Source of the DNA: Natronococcus sp. CG52
Lineage (GTDB): Archaea > Halobacteriota > Halobacteria > Halobacteriales > Natrialbaceae
Assembly: GCF_023913515.1 (NCBI RefSeq)
Contig: NZ_CP099391.1
Coordinates: 1,488,001 to 1,552,000, forward strand
Direction: 5' to 3'
DNA: 64,000 nucleotides
Shown here: positions 6,654-16,743 of the stretch, piece after piece
How positions within the stretch are numbered: the first letter of the stretch is position 1
Layout: each line of letters begins with the position of its first letter
Notes under the pieces: generated by a model
Database searches by the model: none
The model's input: the letters and a program-made list of their open reading frames with translations, nothing else
Told to the model about the DNA's origin: nothing
Translations under genes and position numbers: made by a program

Positions 6654-8276
6654 TTACGACGACCGCGACCAGTCGGAAACGTCGATTCCCGACTCGAGCA
6701 GGCGCGTTCGCGTCGCCTCGCGGTCGACGGTCCCCGACGGCGTCCGCGGAAGCGACGCGACGACGGCGATCATCTTCGGCCGCTTGAATCCCGCGAGGCG
6801 ATCGTCGCAGTGGCCGAGGACGGACTCGAGGGCCAGCGATTCGGCGGCGGTCTCAGACCGGCCTCCAGCCGGTCCGTCGGCTCCCTCGGGAACGACGAGC
6901 GCGCCGACGCGTTCGCCCCACTCGCGGTCCTCGAGACCGACGACGGCGGCGTCGGCGACGCCTGGATGCGAGCGCAGCACCGCGACGACCTCGCCTGGGT
7001 CGACGTTCTCGCCGCCGGTGACGATCCGGTCGCTTCGGCGGTTGAGCACCCACAGCCGGCCGTCCTCGTCGGCGTAACCGACGTCGCCCGTGTAGAGCCC
7101 CCGGCCGCCGAACGCTGCGTCGGTTCGCTCGGGCTCGAGGTAGCCGGGCGTCACCGTCGGCCCCGAGACGACGAGTTCGCCCGGTTCGCCTATCGGAACT
7201 CCCTCCCCATCGTCGTCGACGACCGTCACGTCGGCGAAGAGGAGCGGCTGGCCGACGGTCCCCTCCTGAGTCCGCGTCTCGGCGGGCGTCGCCGTGGCGA
7301 TCTGGGAGGCCGTCTCGGTCATTCCGTAGGTCGGGTGAACCGGCACGTTGGCCGCGTGGCAGCGCTCGAGCAGTTCGCTCGAGGCCGGCGCGCCGCCGAG
7401 GAGAACGAACCGGAGCGCCTCGGCGGGCTGCCAGCCGGCGTCGAGCAGCCGCTTGCACATCGTCGGTACCAGGGAGACGCCGGTCGCGTTCTCGCGCTCG
7501 AGAATCCGGGCCGTCTCGCGCGGTTCGAACGCGCGCTGGATCACGACGGTGGTACCGTAGAGCACGGACCGAACGACGGGGGCCAGCCCGCCCATGTGGT
7601 ACATCGGGAGACAACAGAGCCACCGGTCGTCCGGATCGACGCCGAGCCGGAACGCGGAGGCCGTCGCGCTGGCGACAAGGTTTCCGACGGTCAGTCGCAC
7701 TCCCTTCGGCTCGCCGGAGGTCCCGGAGGTGAACATGATCAGTTGCGTCTCGTCGCGCCCGAGCGAGACTGGTTCGACGGTCCGATCCCCCTCGAACTCC
7801 GACTCAGTTTCGCGCCGGTCCGAGTACAACGCCCGGACCCGCTCTATCTCGGGATCGTCGACGGACCAGACGCACTCGCCCTCGAGCGCCGCCTCGTCCG
7901 CTAGCTCGAGCGCGCTCGATTCGGTCCCCGCCTCGCAGACGATCGCCTCGAGCCCCGTTCGGTCGACCTTCGCGGCGAGTTCACCGGTCGTCTCGCGGAC
8001 GTTCAGCGGAACGACCGTCGCGCCGAGTCGCATCGCGGCGAAGAAGACCGTCGCGAACGCGGGCCGGGTGTCCATCAGGACGCCGAGCCGATCGTTTTGG
8101 GGGTTCCCGAGCGCTCGCCGGATACCTCGAGCGGCGTCGTCGACTCGCCGGTCGAATTCCCGGAAGCTCCAGCGATCGTTCGTCTCCATATCGACCACAG
8201 CCGTTCGCTCGGGCGTCGCCCGGACACGGTGTGTCACCAGGTTGTGAGTCGGCCAGTCGACCGGCGCGCCCGTCAC
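6654..8276 (-). CDS. menE: 2-succinylbenzoate--CoA ligase
   Basis: A 540-aa adenylate-forming enzyme. It activates o-succinylbenzoate to its CoA thioester in menaquinone synthesis. Motifs: P-loop IMFTSGTSGEPKG, YGMTETAS, the A8 hinge YTGDVGYADEDGRLWVLNRR and the C-terminal lysine in AGFKRPKMI. The GTG at 8276 overlaps the menC stop as GTGA, and the protein starts with the normal motif DWPTHNLVTHRVRATPERTA. It is the last gene of menA-menC-menE. The neighbouring men genes make this call firm against other acyl-CoA ligases. Confidence 0.93.
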   Translation of the reverse strand: MTGAPVDWPTHNLVTHRVRATPERTAVVDMETNDRWSFREFDRRVDDAARGIRRALGNPQNDRLGVLMDTRPAFATVFFAAMRLGATVVPLNVRETTGELAAKVDRTGLEAIVCEAGTESSALELADEAALEGECVWSVDDPEIERVRALYSDRRETESEFEGDRTVEPVSLGRDETQLIMFTSGTSGEPKGVRLTVGNLVASATASAFRLGVDPDDRWLCCLPMYHMGGLAPVVRSVLYGTTVVIQRAFEPRETARILERENATGVSLVPTMCKRLLDAGWQPAEALRFVLLGGAPASSELLERCHAANVPVHPTYGMTETASQIATATPAETRTQEGTVGQPLLFADVTVVDDDGEGVPIGEPGELVVSGPTVTPGYLEPERTDAAFGGRGLYTGDVGYADEDGRLWVLNRRSDRIVTGGENVDPGEVVAVLRSHPGVADAAVVGLEDREWGERVGALVVPEGADGPAGGRSETAAESLALESVLGHCDDRLAGFKRPKMIAVVASLPRTPSGTVDREATRTRLLESGIDVSDWSRSS

Positions 8277-9334
8277 TCGTTCCACACCCCCTCGACGCCG
8301 AGTCCCTTCGCCTGCGGGACGACCGCCGAACCGTTCTCGAGCAGGACGGGATCGCGGCCGAGGTCCTCGGCGAGCAGCTCTCCGGTCGCCAGCCCGCAGG
8401 CCGGCAGATCCGGGATCGCCGCCGCGAGGTGGACCGCACCCGTTCGGGCGACGACGCCGTCGATCGTCGTCGTCACCAGCGGCGTGATCTCGAGTTCGGC
8501 GATCCACGCGGTGATCTGCTGGGCGACGTCGAGTCCGCCGAGGGCCATCGGTTTGATCGCGAGGACGTCCGCGGCCCGGGCTTCGCAGATCGCGTCGACG
8601 CCGTGCTCGAGCAGCCCCTCGTCGAGGGCGACCGCGACGCCCTTCCCCCTGAGTTCGGCGTGGCCCTCGAGCGCCCCGGCCGGCAGCGGCTGTTCGACGA
8701 TCGACACGCCGACGTCGGCGAAGGCCTCGATCGCGGCGGCGGCTTCGTCGTAGGACCAGGCGCCGTTCGCGTCCGCGCGGAGTTCGACGTTAGGACCGAC
8801 GGCCTCACGGACGCGGCGTACTCGTTCGACGTCCTCGTCGACGCTTCGGCGGCCGACCTTGAATTTGCAGCAGTCGAAGCCGCGGTCGACGGCGCGTCGT
8901 GCCGCCGTCACGCTCTCGTCGACCGATCGATCCCCGATCGTCGCGTTCACCGGAACCCGCGCGACGAGCGCGTTCGGGCTGAAGTAGCGGTAGAGCGGCG
9001 TCGACTCGGTCGAGGCCTCGAGATCCGCGAGTGCGAGCGAAACGCCGTGTCTCGCGGCGACCGCCTCGTCGACCGCCGCCAACGCCTCCCTCGCGCTACC
9101 GCTCCGGATCGTCCGCTGTGCCCGCTCGAGCGCGGCGGCGCAGTCTTTTCGGGACTCCGTCCAGCCTGGAAGCGGGGTCGCCTCGCCGTAGCCGACCGCC
9201 CCGTCGCTGTGCCGGGTAACGCGAACGAGGAATCCGTCGCGGGAGCCGATCGTTCCGCTCGCGGTCTCGAGCGGCGTGGCTAGCGGCAGCGAGAACGGAC
9301 GGTGCTCGAGGTCGAGTGTCGGTTCGTCGGTCAT
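8273..9334 (-). CDS. menC: o-succinylbenzoate synthase
   Basis: A 353-aa enolase-superfamily enzyme that dehydrates SHCHC to o-succinylbenzoate. Catalytic and metal ligands can be placed: Lys in CCKFKVGR, Asp in LRADANGAWS, Glu in SIVEQPL, Asp in VALDEGL and Lys in DVLAIKPMALGG. The start ATG at 9334 overlaps the menA stop as ATGA, and the end overlaps menE as GTGA, so the three genes are one translationally coupled operon. Length is normal. A dipeptide epimerase is the main alternative and is excluded by context. Confidence 0.92.
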   Translation of the reverse strand: MTDEPTLDLEHRPFSLPLATPLETASGTIGSRDGFLVRVTRHSDGAVGYGEATPLPGWTESRKDCAAALERAQRTIRSGSAREALAAVDEAVAARHGVSLALADLEASTESTPLYRYFSPNALVARVPVNATIGDRSVDESVTAARRAVDRGFDCCKFKVGRRSVDEDVERVRRVREAVGPNVELRADANGAWSYDEAAAAIEAFADVGVSIVEQPLPAGALEGHAELRGKGVAVALDEGLLEHGVDAICEARAADVLAIKPMALGGLDVAQQITAWIAELEITPLVTTTIDGVVARTGAVHLAAAIPDLPACGLATGELLAEDLGRDPVLLENGSAVVPQAKGLGVEGVWNE

Positions 9335-10272
9335 AGCAGCACGAACCCTCCGGCGAACAACAGCGCGTACATCGCGAGCAGTTTCCCGGTCTGCTCGAGG
9401 GCGGGGTTGAGCGCCTCGCCGTCGGTCCGCGTCAGGACGGTTCGCGCGATCAGCGCGGCGTAGGGAAGCGTCACGAGGGGCAACAACACTTCGGGACCGA
9501 ACCCTTCGCCGAGCCAGAACCACAGCGGCGTGAGGTAGGCGAGCGCGAGCAGGGCAGCGAACTCGAGACGACTCCACCGATAGCCGAGGCGGACGGCGAG
9601 CGTCCGCTTTCCGGTCTCCGCGTCGGTTTCCCTGTCGCGGATGTTGTTCACGACCAGGACGGCCGTCGAGACGCCGGCGATGGGGAGGCCGGCGAGGATC
9701 GACTCGCGGGTCACCGTCCCCGCAGGAACCGTCGTCGTGAACGGCTCGAGGTGGGCGGCGGCCTGGACGTAGTACGTCCCGGTCACGGCGACGAGTCCGA
9801 AGAAGACGAAGACGAACGGGTCGCCGAGGCCGTGGTATCCCAGCGGGTACGGTCCGCCCGTGTAGGCCCATCCGCAGCAAACGCTCACGAGACCGATCAC
9901 GAGAATCGGGACGCCGCCGACGTAGACGAGGTAGGTTCCCGAGAGGATCGCCAGCGCGAACGTGACGATCGTCGCGAGTTTGACCCGTTCCGGAGCGATG
10001 AGTCCGGACTGGGTGACCCGCGTAAAGCCCTCCCGATCGTCGGTATCGGCGCCCTTGATCGCGTCGTAGTAGTCGTTCGCGAAGTTGGTTCCGATCTGGA
10101 TCAGTGCTGCACCGATTACCGCCATCAGCGCCGGTATCGGGGCGAAAACGCCCTCGTAGACCGCGAGTCCGGTCCCGACGATGACGGGCGCCGCCGCTGC
10201 GGGCAACGTCTGCGGGCGTGCGGCTATCACCCACGCCTTCGTCCGCGAAATATCGACTTCCGCCGTGCTCAT
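9331..10272 (-). CDS. menA: 1,4-dihydroxy-2-naphthoate polyprenyltransferase
   Basis: A 313-aa integral membrane prenyltransferase (UbiA superfamily) with about eight or nine hydrophobic segments. It attaches the isoprenoid tail to DHNA, giving demethylmenaquinone. Both Asp-rich sites are present: [16 protein letters not shown] near residue 65 and [20 protein letters not shown] near residue 210. Start [20 protein letters not shown] is standard. It is first in menA-menC-menE. Menaquinone is the respiratory quinone of haloarchaea. Confidence 0.95.
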
Positions 10273-10347: not shown

Positions 10348-11136
10348 TTACCGACGGGAATGGCGGACGAGCAGCGTCGCGATACCGAGGATCGCTGCGA
10401 TCGCGGTGAATCCGGGAACGGAATCTGCATCGTCGCCGTTACCCTCGGTCGTCGTCTCGTCCTCGTCTGCGTCGTCGCTCGCGTTCGACTCGTTCGCCGC
10501 CGGTTCGTCCGCGAGTGTGACACCCTCGGGGTCGTCGTCGCCGTCGAGGGCGTCCTCCGGTTCCGCCCCCTCGTCGGGCTCCGCGCCGCCCTCGACGTGG
10601 ACCGTGGCGTCGCGTTCGACCGTATGCTGCGGGTAGTCGGTTATCAGCATCGTCGACGACTCCGTGATTTCGATCCTCTCCGTCGTCGGCTCGGCGTCGT
10701 CGGCCACCTCGAGCGTGAGCGTGGCCGCGGTTCCGGTTCCCTTTGTCCCGTCGCCGGACGGCGTTCGCTCCTGACCGATCGTTACCGTCCCCGCCTCAGC
10801 CTCGATCCCGGCCGCCCCTTCGACTTCGGCGTCCGGATCGTCGCCGGCGAGCATCGGTCCGTGCTCGACGTCCGTCACCGTGAAGACGGCGGGGTCGTAC
10901 GCGACGGTAGCGGACAGGTTGTCGATCCCGTTACCGCTGTAGTCGCCGTGATCGCTCACGACGAGTTCGAGCGTGACGGTCTCGCCCGCGTCGGCGTCGA
11001 CCTCGCCGGAATCGAAGGAGACGACGGTTATCCCGTCGCCGGCGCTGGCCGGCGCTGCGGCGATCCCGAGTGCGAGCGTGAGACAGCAGACGAGTGCGAG
11101 CGCGACGGCGGCGCGCGGCGGCGATCGCCCGGTCAT
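10348..11136 (-). CDS. cohesin-domain surface protein with PGF-CTERM anchor
   Basis: A 262-aa exported protein. Residues 1-32 are a Sec signal (ALALVCCLTLALGIAAAPAS). Residues 35-175 form a cohesin-type beta-sandwich (VSFDSGEVDADAGETVTLEL, NLSATVAYDPAVFTVTDVEH). A low-complexity Asp/Glu/Thr spacer follows, then DSVPGFTAIAAILGIATLLV and RHSRR, a PGF-CTERM tripartite tail. By family knowledge this is processed by archaeosortase A and lipid-anchored in the envelope. The ATG at 11136 overlaps the upstream P19-like gene's stop as ATGA, so the two are co-translated. Its ligand is unknown. Confidence 0.85.
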   Translation of the reverse strand: MTGRSPPRAAVALALVCCLTLALGIAAAPASAGDGITVVSFDSGEVDADAGETVTLELVVSDHGDYSGNGIDNLSATVAYDPAVFTVTDVEHGPMLAGDDPDAEVEGAAGIEAEAGTVTIGQERTPSGDGTKGTGTAATLTLEVADDAEPTTERIEITESSTMLITDYPQHTVERDATVHVEGGAEPDEGAEPEDALDGDDDPEGVTLADEPAANESNASDDADEDETTTEGNGDDADSVPGFTAIAAILGIATLLVRHSRR

Positions 11137-12425
11137 CGTTCCTCCGGAACGGTTAGCTCGAGGGGTGGCATCTCGAGAAACGCCGTCTCGTACCCCTGGT
11201 GGCGAGCGACCTGCGGGGGCGAGTCGATCGTGACCGTCACCGAATCGCCCGGCCGGATCGACGACAGCGACGCGCCGTAGTGGAGGTCGTACTCGCCGTC
11301 GATCGTCTGCTCGAGCGGCGATTCGGCGACGACGGAGCCACCCCGTTCGACCGTTGCGCTGAGGGACATGTCCGCGAGCGGGACGCGGTTGTACGGCGTC
11401 CGCGGCGAGACGAGCAGATACCGGTCGTCGCCGTCGGCCAGCCGGGATTCGGACTCGAGAAGGGTTTCGAGAAACGCTGCGTCGCCACTTCGCGGCAGAT
11501 CCGTCGTCGACTCGGGGACGTCGTCGCCGTCGGAGTCGACGAGGAGCGTCCCGGGGTATTCGCCAACGCCCGGGAGCGCGGAGTAGGGGACGCGGTACCA
11601 ATCGTCGTGACCGTGCGCTTCGTCCCCCTGGTCCCCATCCTCGCCTTCGTCCGTATCCCCTCGCTCTCCGTCCTCGTGGTGCTCGTCCTCGTCAGCTGAG
11701 CCGCCGTGGTCCATCGGCTCGAGGGCGCCGCGTTCGCCCCACAGGCTCTCGTCGAGGTAGTCGACGCCGCCGACGACCTCCTCGCGGAACGCGTCGTCGT
11801 AGACGAACTCGAACGTCGCGGTTTCGCGTTCCTCCAGTCGCCCCTCGAGTTCGCCGGTCTTCCGAGTCGAGAGCGGCGGAACGGTCACCTCGACCGTGTA
11901 CGTTCCGTCCTCGGGGAGGGGAACGTTGTCGCCGAAGTGAAAGCCCATCTCCTGGGAGATCATCGCCCACGGCGACCGCGGGGAGCCGACCCGTTCGCCG
12001 TCGCGCTCGAGGCGAATCTGTGCGCCCTCGTCGACCGGGAGGACGGTCCCGGTCGCCTCCTCCCAGAGGACGAACATCATGTGGACGCCGCGACCGTCGT
12101 CGGGGCTCTCGCGCGAGATCGCGTCGCCCGCGCCGTCTCCGGCGACCAGCCAGAACGGGTGGGGGTACGAGAGCATCGGTGCGAGCCTGTACCCCCCGGC
12201 GTCGACGGGCTCGAGCATCCGCATCGCCTCGCGGTGCGTGGGGACGTACACCGCCTCGGGCGGATCTTCGACTCGGACGGTCTCTGGAACGGCCGATACG
12301 TCGTCTTCGTCGTCCTCGTCGGTTTCGGTGTCGTTTCCGAGACAGCCCGCGAGCGCGAGCGTCCCCGTCGCTACGCCTGTTCGTCGAACGAAGGTACGTC
12401 GGTCGATGGTGTCTCGATCCTGCAT
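11133..12425 (-). CDS. Tat-exported P19/Tp34-like iron-transport lipoprotein with two domains
   Basis: A 430-aa protein with Tat signal DRRTFVRRTGVATG and lipobox LALAGC. Residues about 50-200 resemble the P19/Tp34 periplasmic iron-uptake family (SPWAMISQEMGFHFGDNVPL, then a TYTVEVTVPP strand). After a His/Asp/Glu-rich linker (EDEHHEDGERGDTDEGED and DEAHGHDDW) a second, weaker P19-like or DUF7350-like domain follows (DGEYDLHYGASLSSIRPGDS). P19 proteins bind Cu/Fe and feed FTR1/EfeU permeases, but no permease is adjacent. It lies in a minus-strand operon with a DyP peroxidase upstream and the cohesin protein downstream. Confidence 0.75.
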   Translation of the reverse strand: MQDRDTIDRRTFVRRTGVATGTLALAGCLGNDTETDEDDEDDVSAVPETVRVEDPPEAVYVPTHREAMRMLEPVDAGGYRLAPMLSYPHPFWLVAGDGAGDAISRESPDDGRGVHMMFVLWEEATGTVLPVDEGAQIRLERDGERVGSPRSPWAMISQEMGFHFGDNVPLPEDGTYTVEVTVPPLSTRKTGELEGRLEERETATFEFVYDDAFREEVVGGVDYLDESLWGERGALEPMDHGGSADEDEHHEDGERGDTDEGEDGDQGDEAHGHDDWYRVPYSALPGVGEYPGTLLVDSDGDDVPESTTDLPRSGDAAFLETLLESESRLADGDDRYLLVSPRTPYNRVPLADMSLSATVERGGSVVAESPLEQTIDGEYDLHYGASLSSIRPGDSVTVTIDSPPQVARHQGYETAFLEMPPLELTVPEER

Positions 12426-12532
12426 GGATTGTCGGTCGTGGTAGTCGTCTGGTGCGTTCAGATCGGCCCTACGAGCCAGTATCGGTTTGCGGCCGGGCCG
12501 ATCGAACGGGGAGTCGGCGGCCGTCGTTCGCG

Positions 12533-13807
12533 TCAGCGGTCGGCGACCGGATTCGCCGGCGGCAGCGAGCGCAACGACCGCGGCGGTAGCAGGTAGTTCC
12601 CGCGCCGATCGACGAAGACGTAGTGACGAATTCCGTTGTTCGCAGAGGGAACGTCGAGATCCGCCCCCGTCATCGCCTCGCGGACCCGGACGAAATCGCC
12701 GATCCGTCGCTGGAGGGCGATGAAGTGGAGTCCGGGACGATCCCCGTCGACGGTGTTGACGTCCCGTCGCAGGAGCGACGGCTCGCCGTCCTCCCTGGCT
12801 CGAGCCGCCTTCTGGGCGTGGCCGACGACGTTGTGCTCGCGGGCGTCCGCTTCGGTCGCCTCGATTCGCTCGTCGGTCAGCCCGTTCGACGCGGCCAGCT
12901 TCTCGCCGACGTCGCCGACCCGCTCCTCGACGGCGTGCTCGCGGCTGAACAGTTTCGCGACGCGCTGGAAGTGATTATCCTGCTCGAACCACGTCTCGAG
13001 CTGAATCGCCATCGAGGAGACGTGCTGGGTCGTTCCGCCGGCGAAGGGGCCCGACTCGATCGTCACGCGGTCCTCCGTCGCCTGGCTTCGATCGAAGCCC
13101 GCACGAAAGCCCATGAAGAACGGCGCCTCTTCGGGGATCGATTCGGGAACCCCTGGAACGGCCGTGTGGTCGGCAGGGAGCCCCTCGCCGACGAATCCGG
13201 TCCGGCGGTGTTCCTCGAGTCGGTCGAAGGCGTCCGCGAGCGGCGTCTCGATCTCCACTCCGTTGGCCGTCTCCCGGTCGCCGAACAGCGCTTCCTCGGC
13301 CTCGAGGACGACCCGCGAGCGGTCGCTCGCGAGGTGTAATACGGCGTCGTACCCGTCGAACGTCGGCTCCTCCTGATCGGTCAGCGCGACGGGTTTCGGG
13401 AGATCGGCCGACTCGGGCAGCGACGTATCGAACCGGTCGAAGTACGCCGGCGTGTAGCCGAGCGTGAAGACCAGTCCCTCGTTGCTCCACTCGTAGGCTC
13501 GTTCGAGCGTTCGTAACGCGTCTTCGGTCGTTCCTCGGGCGTCCTCGTCGACACCGTCGGTGAGCGACAGCGCGATCAGAACGTGGTGGGCCGGCGGCCG
13601 AACGTTGCCGTGGTCGTCCGTCGGCAGGACGTCGTTCCAGGCGTGTTGTCGGTCGGGAAGCGAGTCGTAATCGCCGGTTCCCGTCGGCACGTCCGCACCC
13701 TCGGCGGTGAGTTCGAGGCAGGCGCTGAGCGCGCTCGCACCGCCGGCGGCGACCAGCGCGCGCAGCGTCTGTCGTCGCGAAAGCGAGGCGCGATCGAGGG
13801 ACGTCAC
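12533..13807 (-). CDS. Tat-exported DyP-type peroxidase-like protein (DUF7405-like)
   Basis: A 424-aa protein with Tat signal LSRRQTLRALVAAGG and a Cys at ALSACLEL that may be lipidated. The body fits the dye-decolorising peroxidase fold: an early strand HVLIALSLTDGVDEDARGTT, the segment EEAPFFMGFRAGFDRSQATE, the helix QHVSSMAIQLETWFEQDN and the C-terminal core RRDVNTVDGDRPGLHFIALQ. Divergence from classical DyP is large, and I cannot assign the heme-ligand histidine with certainty. EfeB, the DyP of the EfeUOB iron system, is the closest functional analogue. It is first in the operon with the P19-like and cohesin genes. Confidence 0.7.
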   Translation of the reverse strand: MTSLDRASLSRRQTLRALVAAGGASALSACLELTAEGADVPTGTGDYDSLPDRQHAWNDVLPTDDHGNVRPPAHHVLIALSLTDGVDEDARGTTEDALRTLERAYEWSNEGLVFTLGYTPAYFDRFDTSLPESADLPKPVALTDQEEPTFDGYDAVLHLASDRSRVVLEAEEALFGDRETANGVEIETPLADAFDRLEEHRRTGFVGEGLPADHTAVPGVPESIPEEAPFFMGFRAGFDRSQATEDRVTIESGPFAGGTTQHVSSMAIQLETWFEQDNHFQRVAKLFSREHAVEERVGDVGEKLAASNGLTDERIEATEADAREHNVVGHAQKAARAREDGEPSLLRRDVNTVDGDRPGLHFIALQRRIGDFVRVREAMTGADLDVPSANNGIRHYVFVDRRGNYLLPPRSLRSLPPANPVADR

Positions 13808-13888: not shown

Positions 13889-14782
13889 TCAGTAGTGCCA
13901 CGGATAGTCGTCGAAGTCGGGTTCGCGGCCCTCGACGAACGCGTCGCGGCCCTCCTTCGCCTCGTCGGTCATGTAACCCAGTCGCGTCGCCTCGCCGGCG
14001 AACACCTGCTGGCCGACCATCCCGTCGTCGGTCATGTTGAACGCGTACTTGAGCATCCGCATCGCCGTCGGGCTCTTCGCGTTGATCCGGTCGCCCCACT
14101 CGAGGGCCGTCTCCTCGAGTTCCTCGTGCGGGACGACCTCGTTGACCATCCCCATCTCTTCGGCCTCCTCGGCGCTGTACGTTTTGCCGAGGAAGAACAC
14201 TTCGCGGGCCTTCTTCTGGCCGATCTGCTTGGCGAGGTAGGCCGAACCGAAGCCGGCGTCGTAGCTCGCCACGTCGGGGTCGGTCTGGAGGAACTTGGCG
14301 TGCTCCTCGCTGGCGAGCGTCAGGTCGCAGACGACGTGCAGCGAGTGGCCGCCGCCGACGGCCCACCCCGGAACCACGCAGACGACGACCTTCGGAACGT
14401 GGCGGATGAGTCGCTGGACCTCGAGAATGTGCAGTCGTCCCTGTTCGGATGCACGGTCTTCATCACCCTCGTACTGGTATCCGTCCTCGCCGCGGATCGT
14501 CTGGTCCCCGCCGGAACAGAACGCCCAGCCGCCGTCCTTCGGGGAGGGACCGTTCCCGGTCAGCAGGATGCAGCCGACGTCGGTCTGGCGTTTGGCGTGG
14601 TCCAGGGCGTCGTACAGTTCGTCGACCGTTCCCGGCCGGAACGCGTTGCGAACCTCGGGTCGGTCGAAGGCGATCCGGACCGTTCCGGAGTCGACCGCCC
14701 GGTGGTACGTGATGTCGCGAAAGTCCCGATCGACGTCCTCGATCGGCTCCCACTGCTCCTCGTCGAAGAGTTCCGAAACCAT
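13889..14782 (-). CDS. menB: 1,4-dihydroxy-2-naphthoyl-CoA synthase
   Basis: A 297-aa crotonase-family enzyme that cyclises o-succinylbenzoyl-CoA to DHNA-CoA. Family signatures: GWAFCSGGDQTIRGEDGYQY, the oxyanion/turn VPGWAVGGGHSLHVVCDLTL, and SYDAGFGSAYLAKQIGQKKA. The conserved C-terminal tail ends EPDFDDYPWHY. The ATG at 14782 gives the usual start MVSELFDEEQWEP. It stands alone, 3.6 kb from menA and 10 kb from menD, separated by unrelated genes on both sides. Confidence 0.96.
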   Translation of the reverse strand: MVSELFDEEQWEPIEDVDRDFRDITYHRAVDSGTVRIAFDRPEVRNAFRPGTVDELYDALDHAKRQTDVGCILLTGNGPSPKDGGWAFCSGGDQTIRGEDGYQYEGDEDRASEQGRLHILEVQRLIRHVPKVVVCVVPGWAVGGGHSLHVVCDLTLASEEHAKFLQTDPDVASYDAGFGSAYLAKQIGQKKAREVFFLGKTYSAEEAEEMGMVNEVVPHEELEETALEWGDRINAKSPTAMRMLKYAFNMTDDGMVGQQVFAGEATRLGYMTDEAKEGRDAFVEGREPDFDDYPWHY

Positions 14783-14874
14783 TGGCTCGAGTTTGGTGGC
14801 CGTCGGGTGAAATAGGTTCGCGTCGCCGGCCGGCGCGCTCCGAACCTCTCCGGGAGGCGACGGTCTTCGCGCCG

Positions 14875-16743
14875 TTAGTCGTCGCTTCCGCCCCCGGGAG
14901 CGCGATCGAAGCCGACGGCCTGCCCGTCGCGGTTCGGATCGGCCGCGCCGATCAGCCGGTCGCCGTCGACCTGGATCGCCTGCACGTTGCCGAGTTCGCT
15001 GGGTTCGTCGTCCCAGACCTGTCCCCACTCCGCGGTCGTCTCGCGGACGTGCTCCGGAACCCCTTCGTCCCAGATGATATCCATGCAGTCGTTCGTGAAG
15101 ATCGTCGGCTCGGTGATCGACTCGAGCGGATCTAGGCCGTAGACGTAGTGGTGAAGCAGCGTCTGCGCGACCGAGGTGATGATCGTCCACCCGCCCGGCG
15201 ATCCCACGGTGAACTCGGGCGTGCCGTCGCGCAGGACCATCGTCGGGCTCATGCTACTCAGCGGGCGCTTCCACGGTTCGACCTCGTTCGGTCCGCCGGG
15301 TTCGGCGTCGAAGTCCGTCAGTTCGTTGTTGAGCATGAAGCCGCGGCCGGGAACCATCATCCCCGACCCCATGAACTGCTCGATCGTCGAGGTGTAGGCG
15401 ACGGCGTTGCCGTCGCCGTCGACGACCGAGAAGTGGGCGGTCGATCCGGGAATCTGATCGACGAACGCGCCGGTCACCGCCGCCTCCGCACCCGGCGGCA
15501 CGCCCGGATCTACGCACTCGCCGGCGCCGTAGTCCGCGAGCGTGTTCCCGAGACAGACCTGCGCCGCGCGACTCCGGAGGTACTCGTCGTCCAGCAGCCC
15601 CTCGATCGGAACGTCGACGAACTCGGGGTCGCCCATGTACTCGTCCCGGTCGGCCCAGGCCAACCGCGTCGTCTCGGCGATCAGGTGGAACGCCTCGGGC
15701 GAGCGGAGGTCGTACCGGTCGATCTCGAGGAACTCGAGCATCCGGAGGACGGCGGCGACGACGCTCGGTCCCGAACTCGGGAGCGGTTGGCCGACGATCT
15801 CGACGTCGTACCACTCCTTGCGGACGGGGTCGTCGATCGTGACGTCGTACGCGGCGAGGTCGTCGGTGGTCATGCTGCCGCCCGCGTCCTGGACCGTCGC
15901 CGCGAGGTCCTCGGCGATCGGTCCTTCGTAGAACGCCTCGGCGCCGTCGCGTTTGATCCCCTCGAGCGTATCCGCGAGGTCCGCGTTGACCAGCGTGTCT
16001 CCGGCCTCGAGCGGCTCTCCGTCATCGTCGGAGAAGACCTCCCTGGCCTCGTCGTTGAACTTCTCCCAGTTCTCCTCGATCTCCCTGGCCAGGATCGCGT
16101 CCACGGTGAACCCGTCTCGGGCGAGCGTGATCGCCGGTTCGACCAGCCGCTGGCGGGAACAGGTGCCGTAGCGTTCCAGCGACGTCTCGAGTCCCATCAC
16201 GGTACCCGGAACGCCGACGGCCTGTCCCTGCTGAATGCGTTCGTCGAAGGGGATCGGCTCGCCGTCGTCGTCGAGGAACATGTCCGCCGTCGCGCCCTGG
16301 GGCGCTCGCTCGCGGCTGTTGACGACGTCGACCTCGTCTTCGTCGGCGCTGTAGACGACCATGAAGCCGCCGCCGCCGATACCGGAACCGTGTGGCTGCG
16401 TGACCGTCAGTACGTACTGGAGCGCGACGGCGGCGTCGATGGCGTTGCCGCCCTCGCGCAGAACCGTGGCGGCGACCCCGGAAGCGATCGGATCGACGCT
16501 CGAGACCATCCCGTCGCCTGCGGTCACCTGCTGGCCGCACGTGAACTGCGGTTGCTCGCAACTGAAGCCGGGGACGTCGGTGACCTCCTGGACGTCCGCG
16601 CCTGCAATAGTCGAACCCCCGAGGGTGAGCGCACCGGCGGCGACTCCCGTCCGCGAGAGGAACGCTCGACGCCGGAGGCCGGATGACTCTCTCGTCTCGT
16701 CCGTGTGGTTCTCGTTCGCTGATTGCGTGTGATCTCGTGACAT
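14875..16743 (-). CDS. ggt: gamma-glutamyltransferase, Tat-exported
   Basis: A 622-aa gamma-glutamyltransferase. It removes or transfers gamma-glutamyl groups from glutathione-like peptides outside the cell. A Tat signal LRRRAFLSRTGVAAGA opens it. The mature part has VTQPHGSGIGGGGFMVVYS, the autoprocessing/catalytic Thr in IPGSTAHFSVVDGDGNAV, and YTSTIEQFMGSGMMVPGRGF. The N- and C-terminal chains would be cleaved before that Thr. The ATG at 16743 just precedes the Tat motif; longer in-frame extensions run into the AT-rich promoter. It is divergent from an exported carboxypeptidase. Haloarchaea contain gamma-glutamylcysteine, a plausible substrate. Confidence 0.92.
   Translation of the reverse strand: MSRDHTQSANENHTDETRESSGLRRRAFLSRTGVAAGALTLGGSTIAGADVQEVTDVPGFSCEQPQFTCGQQVTAGDGMVSSVDPIASGVAATVLREGGNAIDAAVALQYVLTVTQPHGSGIGGGGFMVVYSADEDEVDVVNSRERAPQGATADMFLDDDGEPIPFDERIQQGQAVGVPGTVMGLETSLERYGTCSRQRLVEPAITLARDGFTVDAILAREIEENWEKFNDEAREVFSDDDGEPLEAGDTLVNADLADTLEGIKRDGAEAFYEGPIAEDLAATVQDAGGSMTTDDLAAYDVTIDDPVRKEWYDVEIVGQPLPSSGPSVVAAVLRMLEFLEIDRYDLRSPEAFHLIAETTRLAWADRDEYMGDPEFVDVPIEGLLDDEYLRSRAAQVCLGNTLADYGAGECVDPGVPPGAEAAVTGAFVDQIPGSTAHFSVVDGDGNAVAYTSTIEQFMGSGMMVPGRGFMLNNELTDFDAEPGGPNEVEPWKRPLSSMSPTMVLRDGTPEFTVGSPGGWTIITSVAQTLLHHYVYGLDPLESITEPTIFTNDCMDIIWDEGVPEHVRETTAEWGQVWDDEPSELGNVQAIQVDGDRLIGAADPNRDGQAVGFDRAPGGGSDD

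Follow-up and report, generated by a model that had tools for sequence, protein, structure and literature searches.

A co-inherited haloarchaeal gene trio for a DyP-like, a two-domain P19-like and a cohesin-domain surface protein in genomes without FTR1

What is the role of a DyP-like protein, a P19-like protein and a cohesin-domain protein that are encoded side by side in a haloarchaeon without an FTR1 permease? The question is raised by three adjacent minus-strand genes in a 64,000-nucleotide (nt) stretch of the Natronococcus sp. CG52 genome (4.74 Mb), which spans positions 1488001–1552000 of contig 1 and is referred to here as the window; all coordinates below are window positions. The best explanation overall, in which our confidence falls a little short of even, is that all three are inherited together as a single extracytoplasmic cassette, a haloarchaeal version of the bacterial EfeB/P19 metal module that works without FTR1. 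The three genes are as follows.

12533–13807, minus strand: DUF7405 gene with a GTG start, encoding a DyP-like protein of 424 amino acids with twin-arginine translocation (Tat)/lipobox export signal (Pfam and NCBIfam profiles)
11133–12425, minus strand: DUF7350 gene, encoding a two-domain P19-like protein of 430 amino acids with Tat/lipobox export signal (Pfam profiles)
10348–11136, minus strand: gene for a cohesin-domain protein of 262 amino acids, with its ATG at 11136, a signal peptide and a C-terminal membrane anchor

A preliminary description of the locus had read it as a surface iron or haem module made of three exported proteins from one minus-strand gene set, and the set and its export signals are indeed found in this form. 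The DUF7405 and DUF7350 proteins have an RR motif followed by a lipobox cysteine (C30 and C28, respectively) that is invariant in the corresponding alignments (A3 and A4), and both terminal segments of the cohesin protein are hydrophobic. The DUF7350 and cohesin reading frames share four nucleotides (ATGA, 11133–11136), and 107 nt separate the DUF7405 and DUF7350 genes. Sequence features and, in part, structure models thus predict two Tat-type lipoproteins and a membrane-anchored β-sandwich protein on the outer face of the membrane.

Is the arrangement a peculiarity of one genome? Its distribution was surveyed by profile searches in 194 genomes of the class, 61 of them from the family of the window (f1). 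DUF7405 is present in 173, DUF7350 in 168 and a cohesin domain in 81 of the 194 genomes. Both DUF families occur together in 168 genomes and neither in 21; DUF7405 is found alone in five and DUF7350 in none. One genome in this table was assigned by elimination as G187, and the Fisher p-value for co-absence is inflated by kinship, with many of the losses lying within genus g22. In the family of the window, 58 of 61 genomes carry DUF7405. For 37 of the 58, the DUF7350 gene comes directly after it, on the same strand and no more than 2.5 kb away; in four others it is nearby on the opposite strand. This neighbour count uses 75 DUF7405 rows, without one half of a split gene, and excludes DUF7350 rows that are partial or match the N-terminal half alone.

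The cohesin gene follows DUF7350 directly at 25 places, distributed over 24 of the 37 family genomes common to both of our samples (the count covers f1 rows, mainly from these 37 genomes, and omits most of the 15 rows of genome G043), and DUF7405 is also present at 21 of these places. The spacing between the DUF7350 stop and the cohesin start was measured in 24 loci and always lies between −17 and +5 nt. Trees and ligand counts were based on 48 loci including the window and L001–L007, chosen for showing the pair or the trio, plus two G143 loci with the genes apart; removal of near-identical rows left 42 DUF7405 and 45 DUF7350 sequences. All 24 cohesin-linked rows fall on one side of a single branch of the DUF7405 tree (98/90) and into one clade of the DUF7350 tree (99/99), which also includes the cohesin-less L001. 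The clade spans three families, f1, f4 (L079) and f7 (L072, L073), across which the trio seems to have been transferred or retained as a whole. As pair and trio recur in many genomes, the arrangement is not due to chance: the trio is a co-inherited cassette rather than a peculiarity of one genome, and the conservation of gene order that the preliminary description had called for is observed. A cohesin in such an operon had been considered unusual; the domain is genuine, and within one clade its presence is the norm. In genus g31 of family f7 (L104, L106), a secreted protein (signal peptide, two DUF7282 domains, C-terminal anchor) stands in for the cohesin protein, and its gene lies directly after DUF7350 and before DUF7405. 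A cohesin-like neighbour was also noticed in G062, which is absent from the Pfam cohesin matches beside DUF7350.

No FTR1/EfeU permease was found by profile search in the genome of the window, as had been anticipated for this locus, and none of the 194 class genomes has a match to FTR1, compared to four of 14 control genomes. Across the sampled class, then, a pair descended from EfeB and P19 does without the channel that usually goes with it. The cassette resembles EfeUOB in that a Tat-exported DyP-like protein stands beside an extracytoplasmic metal protein; it differs from it in the missing permease and in a partner that is P19-like instead of EfeO. Both window proteins are full members of their Pfam families, far above the cut-offs (DUF7405, E 2.8e-149; DUF7350, E 7.7e-55), to which Pfam assigns no function. 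What we describe here is the joint DUF7405–DUF7350 cassette, the internal duplication of DUF7350 and its ligand pattern.

How P19-like is the DUF7350 protein? The P19 family (PF10634; Campylobacter jejuni P19, Escherichia coli FetP, FtrA, Treponema pallidum Tp34, HftA) likewise consists of extracytoplasmic proteins. The Iron_transport/P19 profile matches the window protein just above its cut-off (E 2e-4; 22.0 bits, cut-off 21) and all 36 members of the DUF7350 alignment A4 (E ≤0.01). The protein can be divided into the following parts.

11790–12272, minus strand: N-terminal P19-fold domain, residues 52–212 (Foldseek, VIA-align 2, and a profile match to FtrA)
11586–11714, minus strand: interdomain linker rich in His, Asp and Glu, residues 238–280
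11142–11528, minus strand: C-terminal domain, residues 300–428, with His382 and an RHxxxET motif (hhalign)
11199–11201, minus strand: His409 of the RHxxxET motif, conserved in 45 of 45 sequences (Asp for Glu in six)

The predicted model of the protein is of moderate confidence, with a mean predicted local distance difference test score (pLDDT) of 49.4 overall, with 10-residue blocks of the N-terminal domain ranging from 42 to 91. In a Foldseek search with this model the top 22 rows are all P19, FetP, FtrA or Tp34 chains (best E 3e-5), and the best VIA-align 2 matches are likewise among P19, FetP, FtrA, Tp34 and HftA (FetP: Z 13.4, root-mean-square deviation 3.4, 139 aligned residues). A search with an N-terminal-domain profile retrieves Brucella FtrA (E 2.3e-6). 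Judged from the model and these matches, the N-terminal domain has a P19 fold. The C-terminal domain aligns with it by hhalign at 94.3% (E 1e-7), with a score of 49.2, whereas 40 column-shuffled controls reach 20.2 at most, and a second comparison gave 93.7%; the sequence profiles thus indicate that the two domains are homologous to each other. The two-domain P19-like protein of the preliminary description is supported, with a P19 fold in its N-terminal half; its C-terminal half is homologous to the first and has no P19 match of its own. In four loci (L089, L090, L091, L105), two tandem DUF7350 genes follow DUF7405.

The proposed His-rich linker is borne out: residues 237–281, a stretch of 45, include five His together with 18 Asp/Glu. 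In our sample, linkers with at least five His are restricted to the cohesin clade (20 of 24 cohesin-linked versus 0 of 21 other DUF7350 rows). As the cohesin-linked rows form one clade, we do not rely on the Fisher p-value of 5e-9 for this association; the His-rich linker may go back to a single event in the ancestor of the clade.

The strongest clue to the architecture comes from the metal ligands. In the N-terminal domain, His115, Met117, Met155, Met160 and His163 are conserved in all 45 DUF7350 sequences, and His89 is invariant as well. In an alignment with a Vibrio P19, the HxE motif of the latter pairs with His115-x-Met117 and its RHxxxET motif with a GR(F/L)xxxxT stretch of the N-terminal domain; from its MVASDGPH stretch, Met aligns with Met155 and His with His163. 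The ligands of P19, described by Chan and colleagues in 2010, are reportedly His42, Met88, His95 and His132′. In bacterial P19 the histidine of RHxxxET is given across the dimer. In DUF7350, three equivalents of this copper-site set lie in the N-terminal domain, in which the position of the trans-acting His is never a His (30 Phe, eight Leu and seven gaps), and the fourth is found exclusively in the C-terminal domain. As the trans-His is missing from the former and kept in the latter, the simplest reading of the ligand pattern is that DUF7350 would be a dimer fused into one chain, a pseudo-dimer with one complete site. It would thereby differ from P19 proteins, most of whose metal-site residues it keeps, in its two fused domains, its His-rich linker and its predicted lipid anchor, as well as in the lack of FTR1, FetM or FtrC beside it.

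The second protein, DUF7405, shows a comparable mixture of kept and lost residues.

12818–12820, minus strand: His330, equivalent of the EfeB proximal haem ligand His329 (His in 42 of 42 sequences, collinear with EfeB)
12764–12769, minus strand: Arg347-Arg348, equivalents of EfeB Arg347/348 including the distal Arg (42 of 42 homologues)
13100–13102, minus strand: Ala236, where DyPs have their catalytic Asp (EfeB Asp235, GXXDG motif; never Asp in 42)

The DyP superfamily has a fold of two ferredoxin-like domains; the DyP-like assignment of DUF7405 is drawn from sequence profiles. Matches of the window protein to Dyp_perox_C (PF20628; E 8.8e-4, 19.5 bits, cut-off 20) and to the Dyp-type peroxidase profile TIGR01413 (E 3.6e-5, 23.2 bits, cut-off 100.5) are both sub-threshold, and at E ≤0.01 these profiles match 13 and five of 37 members, respectively. 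A phmmer search of PDB with the single protein gave no match; the DUF7405 profile gave weak ones, the best of which (E 0.04) is named deferrochelatase. With E. coli EfeB, hhalign finds a collinear alignment over nearly the whole length, with a score of 25.8 compared to at most 23.1 in 60 shuffles. It pairs the DUF7405 motif GHAQKAAR...LLRR with DSHIRLANPR...LMLRR of EfeB, and GFRAG with GFKDG. The distal Arg has a role of its own in DyPs. At the position of the catalytic Asp, the 42 sequences have 34 Ser, five Ala, two Gly and one Asn. With the proximal His and the Arg kept and the catalytic Asp missing, DUF7405 probably binds haem but is unlikely to carry out classical DyP peroxidase chemistry. 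The initial label DyP peroxidase thus goes too far, and DyP-like is the better description. A further difference from EfeB is the lipobox, so that DUF7405 is probably lipid-anchored.

How could these parts work together? We propose that the P19-like protein acts as a dimer in one chain, in which His115, Met155 and His163 of the N-terminal domain and His409 of the C-terminal domain would form a single metal site across the domain interface, probably for copper, or for iron handled through copper. The His/Asp-rich linker may collect metal ions. The DyP-like protein would hold haem and act as a redox partner, or as one that releases iron from haem, instead of working as a classical peroxidase, and the cohesin-like protein could tether the pair at the surface. 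The metal would then enter via an importer encoded elsewhere. On this reading, the probable task of the cassette is the extracellular handling of iron or copper, and its route would differ from the one known in bacteria. A bolder version, which we regard as doubtful, sees a pan-haloarchaeal, FTR1-free ferroxidase or metalloreductase relay, in which an Asp-less DyP-type haem protein and a P19 pseudo-dimer whose two halves share one copper-type site feed an importer and to which one clade would have added the cohesin protein and the His-rich linker.

Candidates for the later steps come by analogy from Haloferax volcanii, a laboratory strain that has matches to both DUF7405 and DUF7350 and in which, according to section 3.3 of PMC11349517, several parts of siderophore ATP-binding cassette transporters rise upon iron starvation; such parts could act downstream of the cassette. 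In five loci (L089, L090, L091, L101, L102) we also observed a gene for an integral membrane protein convergent to the pair, with up to nine hydrophobic stretches and, for the L089 copy, no Pfam match, which is a possible importer candidate.

Several observations weigh against the proposed EfeB/P19-type metal cassette. DUF7405 and DUF7350 are not neighbours in 17 of the 58 family genomes with DUF7405, and four of the cohesin–DUF7350 places have no DUF7405 nearby. The alignment of DUF7405 with EfeB is weak by hhalign (2.9%, E 0.016), its AlphaFold2 model from seven sequences is poor (pLDDT 30.6), and the profile of the C-terminal DUF7350 domain has no direct match to P19. A metal-regulated promoter was rejected as a candidate, with no DtxR-like palindrome upstream of DUF7405 in 42 loci. 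For the iron-starvation proteome of Haloferax volcanii, neither the text (section 3.3 of PMC11349517) nor the table listing the 19 most affected proteins mentions one that is DyP- or P19-like. Finally, the acidic iron patch of P19, given in an excerpt of PMC9174327 as Glu3, Glu44, Asp46 and Asp92, is not conserved: the Glu44 equivalent is Met in 45 of 45 DUF7350 sequences, that of Asp46 is non-acidic throughout (Thr, Val, Ser or others), and the place of Asp92 is variable. These losses speak against a P19-type iron site. Because the Glu44 equivalent is always Met, the site looks copper-like, and the residue pattern favours copper, or iron handled through copper. In an excerpt of the FtrB paper (PMC11966278), Cu-bound FtrA of a related system oxidises Fe2+. 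The iron/haem surface module first suggested is thus partly supported; iron cannot be taken for granted as its metal, and copper is a strong competitor.

If copper itself is the substrate, the P19-like protein would be a surface copper chaperone or a redox protein for Cu(I)/Cu(II), with oxidation or detoxification of copper left to the haem partner. The copper-like set of His115, Met117, Met155, His163 and His409, with the likewise invariant Met160 and His89, points in this direction, as do the Met in place of the iron-patch Glu44, the His-rich linker, and the structural neighbours that follow P19, which include the copper proteins CrdA (Foldseek, VIA-align 2) and PcoC (Foldseek). However, PDB titles and an excerpt of PMC9174327 indicate that bacterial P19 proteins bind copper too while serving iron uptake, and no copper ATPase or regulator was recognised among the annotated conserved neighbours; we rate copper handling as rather unlikely, if still a contender. 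Capture of haem iron, with DUF7405 acting like a deferrochelatase, the cohesin-like protein holding it at the surface and the P19-like protein passing the iron on, would account for the loss of the Asp235 equivalent alongside the retained proximal His and distal Arg, and agrees with the names of the best PDB profile matches, all of them weak (E 0.04). Yet an excerpt of PMC9174327 gives EfeB a peroxidase role besides deferrochelation, and haem binding by DUF7405 is itself a prediction from its residues; we consider this explanation quite unlikely.

The position of the trio between menB-like and menA/menC/menE-like genes, all on the same strand, in the window and in many relatives could instead hint at a defence against oxidants outside the cytoplasm, or at a menaquinone-linked side branch of respiration, with a haem protein that consumes peroxide. 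Elsewhere, however, the pair or trio has other surroundings, and the missing catalytic Asp in 42 of 42 sequences fits poorly with peroxide consumption; we consider this very unlikely. That the cohesin protein is a scaffold recruiting dockerin-bearing enzymes beside the metal proteins is hardly credible: its cohesin match is genuine and the genome of the window has one dockerin match, but many trio-bearing genomes have none, each protein has one cohesin domain rather than many, and a DUF7282 protein of the same layout takes its place in genus g31. The FTR1-free cassette of EfeB/P19 ancestry remains our preferred, if tentative, reading. It would give a joint role, one fold and a set of residues to mutate to two Pfam families of no assigned function that occur in about nine of ten haloarchaeal genomes sampled. 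How a DyP/P19-type pair works without a permease becomes a directly testable question in haloarchaea, which lack FTR1, and a fused P19 pseudo-dimer would allow each half-site to be studied in one chain.

The features of the cohesin partner bear on how the pair might be held at the surface.

10621–11007, minus strand: cohesin domain, residues 44–172 (PF00963, E 2.2e-10)
10351–10428, minus strand: C-terminal anchor with VPGF, a weak PGF-CTERM match (TIGR04126, 13.5 bits, cut-off 24.5)

The cohesin match is the sole one in the genome of the window. Dockerin matches are present in 13 and absent from 11 of the 24 genomes with a cohesin–DUF7350 pair, the one in the window's genome lying on contig 3. 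With 11 of 24 genomes lacking a dockerin match, a cellulosome-type cohesin–dockerin assembly was rejected as unlikely, and the surface assembly through dockerin pairing envisaged at the outset is not sustained. Unlike the cellulosome cohesins with which it shares the domain match, the cohesin of the trio is single, membrane-anchored and translationally coupled to a metal protein. The domain is probably a carrier-like β-sandwich for partner binding or tethering rather than part of a cellulosome. Anchoring by archaeosortase had also been proposed. The VPGF motif and, elsewhere in the genome, an archaeosortase ArtA gene are present, but the profile match is below its cut-off. As PGF occurs in just 12 of the 24 partners, the constant feature is the membrane anchor, not sorting. 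Separately, G043 has a cluster of many cohesin and dockerin matches (contig 1, 470364–491884), which suggests a true archaeal cohesin–dockerin surface system unrelated to the trio.

Our literature search, which did not cover most subscription papers, returned no paper naming DUF7405, DUF7350, or a cohesin domain together with haloarchaea. Papers found for haloarchaeal Dyp-type peroxidases were off-topic by title, and none of the matches listed for Halobacteria with EfeB or P19 concerned this gene pair by title.

The trio is flanked in the window by the following genes.

13889–14887, minus strand: menB-like gene (enoyl-CoA hydratase)
9331–10272, minus strand: UbiA (menA-like) gene, on the other side of the trio

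Further out on the same strand lie an enolase-like gene with a weak MenC match and an AMP-binding gene, which are menC/menE-like. Genes of menaquinone biosynthesis at 6654–10272 and 13889–14887 thus bracket the trio, as they do in many relatives. In seven loci (L004, L072, L073, L074, L076, L078, L079), a Tat/lipobox β-propeller-like lipoprotein is encoded near the trio or the cohesin–DUF7350 pair, mostly divergent from the trio, with weak matches to surface-layer propellers, cytochrome d1 propellers and thiocyanate dehydrogenase.

A short sequence element, ACCAGAAC (often ...TTCGAGAnCnnnACCAGAACC...), recurs upstream of DUF7405 in L089, L090, L092–L095, L101, L102 and L104–L106. These are pair loci that lack a cohesin gene; at the corresponding position of cohesin loci the element was not observed. 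Its spacing is nearly fixed, 62–73 nt upstream of the DUF7405 RR codon and about 30–35 nt ahead of the start codon, at the expected site of a core promoter. An 8-mer of the element is found in 11 of 42 upstream regions compared to 0.6 expected.

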